Below are positions 29,348 through 31,411 of a stretch of 64,000 bases of DNA, piece after piece (position 1 is the first letter of the stretch; the number at the start of each line of letters is the position of its first letter). Below the pieces are notes generated by a model that was not told the origin of the DNA, did not search any database, and saw nothing but the letters and a program-made list of their open reading frames with translations. The position numbers were made by a program, and so were the translations under genes. Origin of the DNA: Candidatus Saccharimonadota bacterium (GTDB lineage Bacteria > Patescibacteriota > Saccharimonadia > Saccharimonadales > Saccharimonadaceae); NCBI GenBank assembly GCA_017545525.1, contig JAFWMT010000007.1, positions 62,001-126,000 on the forward strand, given 5' to 3'.

Positions 29348-30385
29348 CTAGTACCATCCGTGCGCGTACCAGAAATTGAGCGCCCCCTGCCAACCACCAT
29401 ACCTACTTACATATCCTGCCATCCAACGAATCTGTGTTACCGGATTAGTCTCCCAATCCGCTCCCGCTGAAGCCATCTTCGAACCAGGCAAAGCCTGCGG
29501 AATTCCATACGCCCCTGAACTTGCGTTTCTTGCGTTCACTCTACAACCGCTCTCATGATAGATTAAATCAATCGCTGCACTTAAATCTGCCTCTGACACA
29601 CCCGCTGCTCGCGCCCATTCCGCACAAACCTCTGAATTGGGCGGTAATGACTTCTTTACCCCAATCGCCACTATCCTCTTAACCGGCTCTCTTACCATCT
29701 CTTCCGATACCACTTCTCTAGACACTTCAACATTATCGATATAATAAACATTGTAATTTACTCGCTTTAGCCCCACCTCGCCTAATTGTCTTACCTCAGA
29801 TTTACCCGCCTCAAGACTCGCATCTCTTACTGTTTCCTCCGTAAAGGCAACTTCCACTTCCTCTGTTACCGTCCTTCCGCCATTTCTTTTAATCTCATAA
29901 GTATTTACCGCTCCCGCCTCTAGAAAATCCGTATTAAAGACCATCGCTATCTCATCGCCATCATAAACTGTTATCCCCGCCTCTTTTGCAATCGTTTTTA
30001 CATCATAACTAGCTGTCATCAAATATTTTTCAACCAAACCATCTTTTAAAATCACCGGTCTCGCCCGATAGATATTAATAAAGAAATTATCTGCGTTTAT
30101 CTCTGTCTCTAACTTCGGTTCAACTATATCTCCATCGTTTATTATTATTTCTGCCCTCTCTAATGCCTCTTTTACTGTCTTCGCATCAGTTTTTACCGTC
30201 AATTTCTCCCCATTATCATAAAAGTTCACATATTTTGAACCCTCAGTTTCAAATGCAAAAACCTCGTCTTCCCCTTCTGCGAAAGTCACGTTTCTATCTA
30301 TTTTGATTAAACACGCAAAAAGCACTGCTATAACAACAGCACCACAGATAATTAAAGCTTTATCGATATTCTTCGAAAGCCTCAT
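29348..30385 (-). CDS. Rpf/YabE-like secreted protein: G5 plus transglycosylase-like domain
   Basis: 345 residues. One N-terminal membrane anchor or signal (ALIICGAVVIAVLFACLI), two ubiquitin-like DUF348-type modules (about 55-165), a G5 domain (about 165-245) and a C-terminal lysozyme/transglycosylase domain with the catalytic Glu in LIYHESGCRVNARNASSGAYGIPQALPG near residue 275, and a final TQIRWMAGYVSRYGG. The order is that of resuscitation-promoting factors and YabE proteins, which cut peptidoglycan outside the membrane. Here it would remodel the wall, possibly also during contact with a host cell (inference). TATAAT ends 6 bases before the start. Confidence 0.85.
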   Translation of the reverse strand: MRLSKNIDKALIICGAVVIAVLFACLIKIDRNVTFAEGEDEVFAFETEGSKYVNFYDNGEKLTVKTDAKTVKEALERAEIIINDGDIVEPKLETEINADNFFINIYRARPVILKDGLVEKYLMTASYDVKTIAKEAGITVYDGDEIAMVFNTDFLEAGAVNTYEIKRNGGRTVTEEVEVAFTEETVRDASLEAGKSEVRQLGEVGLKRVNYNVYYIDNVEVSREVVSEEMVREPVKRIVAIGVKKSLPPNSEVCAEWARAAGVSEADLSAAIDLIYHESGCRVNARNASSGAYGIPQALPGSKMASAGADWETNPVTQIRWMAGYVSRYGGWQGALNFWYAHGWY

Positions 30386-30391
30386 GCTTAC

Positions 30392-30400
30392 ATTATATCA
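30392..30400 (-). promoter_or_regulatory. Extended -10 of the Rpf-like gene
   Basis: TGATATAAT on the minus strand, 6 bases before the ATG. It sits right after the T run of the ncRNA terminator. Confidence 0.7.
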
Positions 30401-30410
30401 CACTTCTATA

Positions 30411-30438
30411 AAAATAAAAACTCGTTTTCAACCGAGTT
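30411..30438 (-). terminator. Terminator of the candidate ncRNA
   Basis: Minus strand AACTCG, GTTGAAAA loop, CGAGTT, then TTTTTATTTTT. Confidence 0.85.
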
Positions 30439-30630
30439 CTTATTAACTAATTTCTAGGTGGAAAACAGTCTCTAACCAAAACAGCTCTACACTCTCCACC
30501 CTCACTGTCCTGCTAACATGATCTTCAATCACGTGCAGATGGTCCTTTAATTTAGCCCTTATCGCCTTTAACGATACGCTTCACATCTCCCGGCTCAGAC
30601 CCCTTTCAACGTTGGATTCGGCCCGAACCT
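30412..30630 (-). ncRNA. Candidate stand-alone structured RNA, about 220 nt, family unknown
   Basis: A 220-base stretch without an open reading frame, flanked by a consensus promoter and an intrinsic terminator on the minus strand. Folds that can be read directly: CTGC-ACGTGAT loop ATCATGT-TA-GCAG (about 30545-30517), TATCG loop CGATA (about 30578-30562), GGGTGGA...TCCACCT (about 30510-30455), and AGGT at the 5' end pairing with ACCT at 30459-30456, which would close the molecule. I checked by eye for the hallmarks of RNase P, tmRNA, SRP RNA and 6S RNA and did not find them, although a divergent 6S-like or other housekeeping RNA is possible. Coordinates are limits inferred from promoter and terminator. 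Confidence 0.7.
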
Positions 30631-30636
30631 ACTTTC

Positions 30637-30664
30637 ATTTTAGCATAGCCGTAAAGCTTGTCAA
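30637..30664 (-). promoter_or_regulatory. Consensus promoter of the candidate ncRNA
   Basis: TTGACA (30664-30659), 16 bases, TAAAAT (30642-30637) preceded by TGC. No start codon with ribosome binding site follows within 200 bases. Confidence 0.8.
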
Positions 30665-30745
30665 TCTTGTTTTTTCAAAATCTTTATGTTATAATAATTT
30701 TTCACTATAACAGGGGTAAAAAGCCAAAAACCGAACAAACTTTTA

Positions 30746-30775
30746 TTGACAAATAAACAACTTATGATTTATAAT
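30746..30775 (+). promoter_or_regulatory. Consensus promoter of the CPTCG membrane protein gene
   Basis: TTGACA (30746-30751), 18 bases, TATAAT (30770-30775). The ATG at 30782 begins 6 bases after the -10. Confidence 0.85.
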
Positions 30776-30781
30776 AAATCC

Positions 30782-31411
30782 ATGAATTGGAGGAAATGGC
30801 TCGACGAATTCGTCCTAGCCGGAAAAAGTATTTTGCTCGCCACCAAAGAAAAACGCTTTTGGTATGGCTTTATTCCTAGTTTTTTATTTTTCGGCCTTTT
30901 AATTAACTTGCTCCAAGGTGGATTTTCAAAGTTCGAGCTTATGGGCGCTCTCGGCTTCCCCCAAAGTCTAAAAATAATCCTTGATAGCTTTCTTGCCATC
31001 TTCGGTATTAATCAACCTTTTCTCGACTGGCTTCCAACCTTTTTTATCTCTCTCTTACAGGGTATTTTAATCGGCTTGATCACACTGCTTTGGAAAAAGA
31101 AACAGGAACAAAACTCCGCCAACCTCGAAAAAGCCGGTATTATCACCGGGCTAATTGCTCTCGGCGCTGGCTGCCCGACTTGCGGAACTACTCTGCTCAC
31201 TCCTCTAATTGGCGCAATTTTTAGCACCGGTAGCCTCGCTATTGCTGGAACCATTTCTACTATTGTTACTATTTTAGCTATCGTTATCGCAGTTTTGTCC
31301 ATCAAGCGTCTCGGCGAAGAAACCTATGTTATAATGGTAAATGAAAGATATCTCGCACGTCATGCGAAGAAAGAGAAGGGAGAAAAAAAGAATCATGAAA
31401 AAAGCCTTTAG
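30782..31411 (+). CDS. Membrane protein with CPTCG motif, next to a DsbA-like protein
   Basis: About 209 residues starting MNWRKWLDEFV. The start at 30782 is set by the consensus promoter; the TTG at 30746, which would give a longer protein, is itself the -35 element. Roughly five hydrophobic segments (FIPSFLFFGLLINLL, TFFISLLQGILIGLITLL, AGIITGLIALGAG and two more). The conserved GAGCPTCGTTLLTPLIGA lies at the end of one of them, with two cysteines in a CxxC arrangement, as in membrane redox proteins. Its 3' end overlaps the next gene. I infer a role in thiol-disulfide transfer; the family itself I cannot name. Confidence 0.7.
   Translation: MNWRKWLDEFVLAGKSILLATKEKRFWYGFIPSFLFFGLLINLLQGGFSKFELMGALGFPQSLKIILDSFLAIFGINQPFLDWLPTFFISLLQGILIGLITLLWKKKQEQNSANLEKAGIITGLIALGAGCPTCGTTLLTPLIGAIFSTGSLAIAGTISTIVTILAIVIAVLSIKRLGEETYVIMVNERYLARHAKKEKGEKKNHEKSL
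31327..31335 (+). promoter_or_regulatory. Possible internal extended -10 before the DsbA-like gene
   Basis: TGTTATAAT inside the upstream gene, ending 5 bases before the ATG at 31341. It would give a leaderless mRNA for the thioredoxin-like gene. Confidence 0.4.

Follow-up and report, generated by a model that had tools for sequence, protein, structure and literature searches.

The window, that is, the whole 64,000-nucleotide stretch of DNA analyzed here, encodes a small RNA, denoted RNA-A, that is interpreted as a trans-acting small RNA (sRNA) of one Saccharibacteria genus, acting mainly as a sponge of a second sRNA, RNA-B. The gene for RNA-B resides on another contig and is not visible from the window alone. 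That RNA-B is a real, conserved RNA gene can be regarded as virtually beyond doubt, and the same conclusion for RNA-A is nearly as secure. Pairing of the two RNAs in vivo is highly probable, in the absence of transcript data. The sponge role itself is favored only slightly: its direction is inferred solely from the phylogenetic distribution of the two RNAs, and the effect in vivo is likewise an inference.

RNA-A: promoter, terminator and structure

RNA-A appears to be a stand-alone, non-coding, structured RNA encoded on the minus strand, with transcription inferred. Its promoter (30664-30637, minus strand) consists of TTGACA (30664-30659), a 16-nt spacer and the extended −10 element TATGC-TAAAAT (30642-30637), matches the consensus at 11 of 12 positions and is nearly invariant at orthologous loci, in agreement with the preliminary description of a TTGACA-16-TAAAAT promoter with a TGC extension. 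The transcript, deduced from the promoter and the terminator without transcript data, would comprise approximately 222 nt (30410-30631, minus strand), with the transcription start at about 30631/30630. At its 3' end, the intrinsic terminator reported previously is indeed present (30444-30411, minus strand), in the form of a 12-bp hairpin, AATAAGAACTCG-loop-CGAGTTTTTATT, followed by a T-run, and none of 200 shuffled sequences was equally stable (z = -5.3). Most relatives have a terminator at the equivalent position, with an unrelated sequence. The claim that the RNA is structured also holds: none of 200 dinucleotide shuffles of the 228-nt RNA folded as stably (z = -3.2). The interior of RNA-A is GC-rich and contains neither an obvious coding frame nor a conserved ORF.

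Among the RNA-A orthologues, the promoter, the 5' hairpin, an inner segment of about 25 nt and CCACCTAGAAATTA are kept, along with the terminator in most. The conserved core, which is matched by models R1 (derived from RNA-A) and R3 (built from a diverse set of RNA-A sequences), is only about 105-120 nt long, plus the terminator. The 5' hairpin, P1 (30592-30629, minus strand), is formed by GGTTCGGGCC (30629-30620) and GGTCTGAGCC (30601-30592). Changes on both sides were detected in 7 of its 10 pairs in an alignment of 26 sequences and in 8 of 10 among 31 more diverse sequences; the compensatory cells outnumber those in all 500 shuffles, and the signal drops once the partner is slid. The P1 loop carries the motif CGTTGAAAG (30603-30611, minus strand), which reads CGTTGARAG in relatives and occupies near-invariant columns.

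The 3' hairpin, P2 (30456-30501, minus strand), pairs GGGTGGA (30501-30495) with TCCACCT (30462-30456) and presents in its loop the most strongly conserved inner part of RNA-A, the segment AGAGTGTAGAGCTGTTTTGGTTAGA (30471-30495, minus strand), which is complementary to the RNA-B linker, as supported by a genome pattern search, co-variation with RNA-B and cofolding. In P2, 85% of the cells are paired, mostly with invariant bases, and the support is weaker (67%) in the broader sequence set. P2 is followed by a conserved tail, CCTAGAAATTA (30448-30458, minus strand), in which CCTAG is invariant. This arrangement revises the earlier proposal of a chain of hairpins closed by AGGT/ACCT. The closing pairing can literally be read in the sequence, yet it lacks any covariation and up to 5 of 26 sequences disrupt it; ACCT pairs instead with GGGTGG in the 3' hairpin. 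The middle hairpins of the chain do exist; the region that contains them (30591-30502, minus strand) is, however, a variable, lineage-specific insert that is missing or different in most relatives. One hairpin of the insert (30577-30560, ATCGTTAAAGGCGAT) resembles those of the RNA-A from genome G163 (locus L157), which has its own, longer insert with about four similar hairpins and (U)UUAAGG-like loops. A repeated hairpin module thus seems to expand and contract inside RNA-A. A resemblance of TAGAGCTGTTTTGG to CRISPR tracr rests on general similarity only and was set aside.

No covariance model of Rfam 15 matched RNA-A at the gathering score, and a permissive scan of the region to E = 10 yielded nothing near the cut-off of any family; cmscan of the whole window detected one tRNA and nothing else. 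The suggestion that RNA-A is none of the common housekeeping RNAs is in line with these results, and the genes for RNase P RNA and tmRNA lie at other places in the genome.

Genomic context and distribution of RNA-A

RNA-A is located upstream of a G5/DUF348 gene (Pfam), on the same strand, in 25 of the 32 loci that carry relatives of the encoded protein; all named relatives come from Saccharibacteria, e.g. Ca. Nanosyncoccus alces. Across genomes, the neighbors of RNA-A differ and include the G5-domain gene, tRNA genes and others. The downstream gene in the window has its own −10 box (30392-30397, minus strand, in the context TGTGATATAAT), with the start codon at 30385, and is apparently leaderless. 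This extended −10, some 7 nt before the ATG, is retained even where RNA-A is missing, e.g. at L035. Given this promoter element and the varied genomic contexts, RNA-A is most likely a separate gene and not a leader.

The entire 395-base intergenic gap was initially attributed to the RNA; positions 30665-30781 are the promoter region of the divergent gene. Within this region, a conserved element, ACAGgGGTAA...AAAAACCGAACA (30710-30745, plus strand), directly precedes the TTGACA-TATAAT of the divergent gene (30746-30775) and recurs in most orthologous loci; it may serve the divergent membrane-protein/thioredoxin-type operon as an operator or UP-type site. In both the 29348-30385 (minus strand) and 30746-31411 (plus strand) genes, a TATAAT box is found about 6-7 nt before the ATG, which suggests that leaderless transcripts are common in the genome from which the window derives. 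In genome G001, a copy of RNA-A without a terminator (L002/L266) reads into a ribosome binding site and an ORF that begins with MCTGIRFNGADGGMYFGRNLDW and, by eye, resembles choloylglycine hydrolase; this copy may have turned into an mRNA leader.

Model R3 identified RNA-A in 61 of the 74 sampled genomes of its Saccharibacteria genus, not in the remaining 13, and in none of the other 60 genera of the family. The preliminary description had put forward a lineage-specific regulatory or housekeeping RNA, to be checked against Rfam and by covariation at orthologous loci. The restriction to one genus, the lack of an Rfam family, the compensatory changes and the several genomic contexts all support the regulatory variant. 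The term 'regulatory' suits RNA-A better than 'housekeeping' because RNase P RNA and tmRNA are found elsewhere, because RNA-A was not found in 13 of 74 genomes and because the core shows complementarity to another sRNA.

A second conserved RNA encoded beside tmRNA

In addition to RNA-A, model R1 matches a site adjoining tmRNA in most genomes of the genus. This match was rejected as another copy of RNA-A: the site has a promoter and a terminator on the strand opposite to the R1 match, and the promoter points to transcription from that opposite strand. The RNA encoded there, RNA-B, is approximately 115 nt long and maps, in the window's genome (G000), to contig 2, 12207-12091 (minus strand), a contig other than that of RNA-A, behind a perfect TTGACA-17-TATAAT promoter. 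RNA-B consists of a 5' hairpin with compensatory changes (GCUUUUGAAUAA/UUAUUCAAAAGC), an A-rich linker, CAAAAAUAAAAA, that holds the core AAAACUCCAC, a further segment, UUUAGCCAAAAUAACUCCACACUCUAC, and a terminator hairpin, whose stem also shows compensatory changes and whose loop, UUUCCUCGCAG, includes the conserved CUCGCA. The same CUCGCA loop occurs in the RNA-A terminators of L156 (genome G089), L017, L018 and L028, and in G089 it coincides with loss of the site that pairs with RNA-B. A kissing interaction of the RNA-A P1 loop with the RNA-B terminator loop was considered and rejected (-7.1 kcal/mol vs -7.4 kcal/mol for shuffles).

A model built from RNA-B, R2, detects this RNA in 265 of 295 genomes of the family, including 194 of the 206 good ones, and in 55 of 61 genera. 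In other genera, the linker is shortened to AAAACUCCAC(A), and the terminator loop and the promoter are retained; the AAAACUCCAC core is kept in most genera looked at, with G027 lacking it. RNA-B-like loci with a promoter, a hairpin, an A-rich linker and a UCUCGCA terminator loop are present in G324 and G440, which represent two further families of the order. Weak R1 or R2 matches in other families (G306, G465, G424, G466, G397, G320 and others) were dismissed as chance-like where inspected. Two genomes have RNA-A and no clear RNA-B, which is absent in G163 and near-absent in G210; neither assembly contains an above-cut-off tmRNA. In these searches, tmRNA was detected by Infernal and not by ARAGORN. 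RNA-B had no match to any family in Rfam 15, and the RsaE/RoxS family model was not among its matches to E = 10.

In the window's genome, the genes for RNA-B, tmRNA and RNase P RNA are clustered in a stretch of about 5.5 kb (G000 contig 2, 11699-17098), interspersed with genes that by eye are YifB/ComM-like, infC-like and rplT-like. About 60 bases upstream of RNA-B, ahead of the promoter, a conserved TGTGGAAAAC, close to the complement of a DnaA box, is found in most genomes (L082-L141).

Being genus-specific, RNA-A is apparently the younger of the two RNAs. With RNA-B spread through the family and RNA-A confined to one genus, the latter can be inferred to have arisen as a partner atop an older sRNA.

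Complementarity and co-variation of the two RNAs

A search for the 22-mer GAGTGTNGAGYTNTTTTGGCTA with up to 3 mismatches returned 2 sites in the 721-kb genome, one in RNA-A (sense) and the other in RNA-B (antisense), compared with 0 for a control pattern. The RNA-B linker of this genome is predicted to be unpaired with a probability of 0.89-0.97, and cofolding of the two RNAs gives ddG = -21.6 kcal/mol. In the 44 genomes that possess the site, the duplex with the cognate partner has a mean energy of -31.1 kcal/mol vs -29.4 kcal/mol for permuted partners, a difference reached in 0 of 20,000 permutations; the means for the controls are -14.6 kcal/mol (shuffled sites) and -4.7 kcal/mol (reverse complement).

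Co-variation was assessed on 35 distinct concatenated RNA-A-RNA-B pairs. Changes on both sides were observed in 14 cells vs 3.8 expected, and the covariation score was 0.104 vs 0.069 in shuffles, with none of 500 shuffles as high in either case. All 14 compensatory cells fall within the three variable columns of RNA-B, and when the alignment is slid by 1-3 bases, no more than 45% of the cells remain paired, compared with 83% in register. After GGCTA, A or G in RNA-A is found opposite U in RNA-B, and U in RNA-A opposite A in RNA-B. Such A-U to U-A swaps between two distantly encoded RNAs, observed at site columns 25-26, are hard to explain otherwise than by pairing. The duplex is never perfect, with site positions 9 and 13 often mismatched, and the permutation and shuffle tests leave in shared ancestry, which inflates them.

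In at least 6-7 genomes (G089, G169, G213, G216, G257, G281 and probably G134), RNA-A lacks the site and RNA-B is present; the duplex energies of such copies with RNA-B are no better than those of shuffles. These copies still keep P1 and its loop. Because the site is lost in some copies although RNA-B is present, RNA-A must have a further role, presumably exerted through P1 and the loop.

Proposed function

The layout of RNA-B is that of a trans-acting sRNA: the accessible linker and the terminator loop are both C/U-rich and complementary to ribosome binding sites of the GGAG type. Judged by this layout, action of RNA-B on ribosome binding sites is reasonably likely. A genome-wide search for the complement of the RNA-B seed gave 34 sites vs 34 in the control, and without an excess of target-like sites, no mRNA target of RNA-B has been demonstrated. 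Two matches at start codons, in genes for a 436-aa surface-type protein (L336) and an acyl-CoA-ligase-like ORF (L347), are mere candidates.

Under the sponge model, RNA-B would normally be an antisense regulator that hides the Shine-Dalgarno-like GUGGAGU of mRNAs. RNA-A would pair in trans with the RNA-B linker through a loop segment of about 25 nt and cover the ACUCCAC segment of RNA-B, as a sponge or a partner RNA. When RNA-A is made, RNA-B would be titrated, or the duplex would be cut by RNase III, and the targets of RNA-B would be relieved. The criterion for a sponge, namely, independent transcription combined with complementarity to the pairing region of an sRNA, is met by RNA-A at the sequence level, with transcription inferred.

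The pairing evidence is symmetric, so the relationship could run in reverse, with RNA-A as the effector, by way of its P1 loop (CGUUGARAG) or of a protein that it binds, under antisense control by RNA-B. Conservation of P1 and the loop in RNA-A copies devoid of the pairing site, which implies another function of RNA-A, fits this scheme. RNA-B with its ACUCCAC core is nonetheless kept in most of the RNA-A-less genera looked at, which indicates that RNA-B has older targets, and we consider the reverse direction unlikely, without discounting it. Still less probable is a stable two-RNA particle, in which the two would make up a bipartite structural or guide RNA that proteins may bind or RNase III may process. 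The long co-evolved duplex, the strongly conserved flanking hairpins of both RNAs and the CUCGCA loop of RNA-B, which is conserved on a covarying stem and recurs in some RNA-A terminators, would all be expected of such a particle; against it, other genera manage with RNA-B alone, some genomes retain an RNA-A that lacks the site, and no protein gene was seen travelling with RNA-A. Equally improbable is an independent role of RNA-A as a housekeeping or protein-binding RNA, e.g. 6S-like, with only secondary complementarity to RNA-B. In favor of this role, the promoter is strong and looks constitutive, and a hairpin is well conserved, with a loop that hardly varies, but RNA-A matches neither 6S nor other Rfam models, the genome encodes RNase P RNA and tmRNA elsewhere, 13 of the 74 genomes of the genus yielded no RNA-A, and the core site of RNA-A co-varies with RNA-B. 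Finally, RNA-A could be a cis-acting leader (a riboswitch or attenuator, e.g. a c-di-AMP switch) that controls the G5/DUF348 cell-wall gene downstream, as suggested by the position of RNA-A directly upstream on the same strand, ended by a terminator, in 25 of 32 loci and by the read-through copy in G001. This reading is very improbable in view of the leaderless −10 that the gene itself has beyond the terminator and that is conserved even where RNA-A is missing, the location of RNA-A next to tRNA and other genes elsewhere, and the lack of a match to any riboswitch model, including c-di-AMP (ydaO).

The sponge model remains the preferred reading. A more far-reaching version, in which the two undescribed families form a co-evolving RNA pair in Patescibacteria, with RNA-B as a global translational regulator in a lineage of minimal genomes and P1 of RNA-A recruiting an unknown factor, is speculative. 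In either form, one RNA family runs through almost the whole family of ultra-small episymbionts, and the other is a co-evolving genus-level partner. The two RNAs provide testable evidence that episymbionts with 0.7-Mb genomes may keep layered sRNA-sponge regulation, and the covariance models, the seed and the co-varying positions predict which compensatory swaps should matter. If true, this would be the first sRNA circuit described in Patescibacteria, as far as the literature was searched, or possibly a two-RNA particle.

Comparison with known systems

In the loci looked at, tmRNA (RF00023) lies next to RNA-B and points the same way; RNA-B differs in having a separate promoter and lies outside the model match (L079, 1104-1460 vs approximately 1502-1620 for RNA-B). 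Like 6S RNA (RF00013), RNA-A is stand-alone, about 200 nt long and endowed with a strong promoter, but it has no match to the 6S model and, instead of a long single hairpin with a central bubble, forms two separate hairpins. RNA-A shares GGA motifs and the logic of titration with the titrating RNAs of the Csr/Rsm type; the partner titrated by RNA-A is, however, an RNA with a co-varying complement and not a GGA-binding protein.

In the limited set of publications that was searched for small RNAs of Saccharibacteria and CPR bacteria, including the TM7x transcriptome (PMC10768705), no small regulatory RNA is mentioned. The closest parallels come from Staphylococcus aureus, where RsaI sponges RsaE (PMC9217828), and Bacillus subtilis, where RosA sponges RoxS (PMC8216469); RoxS, like FsrA, targets Shine-Dalgarno sequences with C-rich single-stranded regions (PMC10433868). 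In both pairs, as proposed here, a conserved sRNA with single-stranded C-rich motifs is blocked by a separately transcribed pairing sRNA. The pair described here belongs to a different phylum, has no detected sequence or structural homology to these systems and lacks a demonstrated mRNA target. RNA-B carries the motifs ACUCCAC and UUCCUCGC instead of the UCCCC of RsaE/RoxS, and RNA-A, unlike RsaI and RosA, presents one long hairpin-loop site. Thus, the combination of an sRNA with its sponge is of a known kind, and the RNA-A and RNA-B families of Patescibacteria, both absent from Rfam 15, are new.
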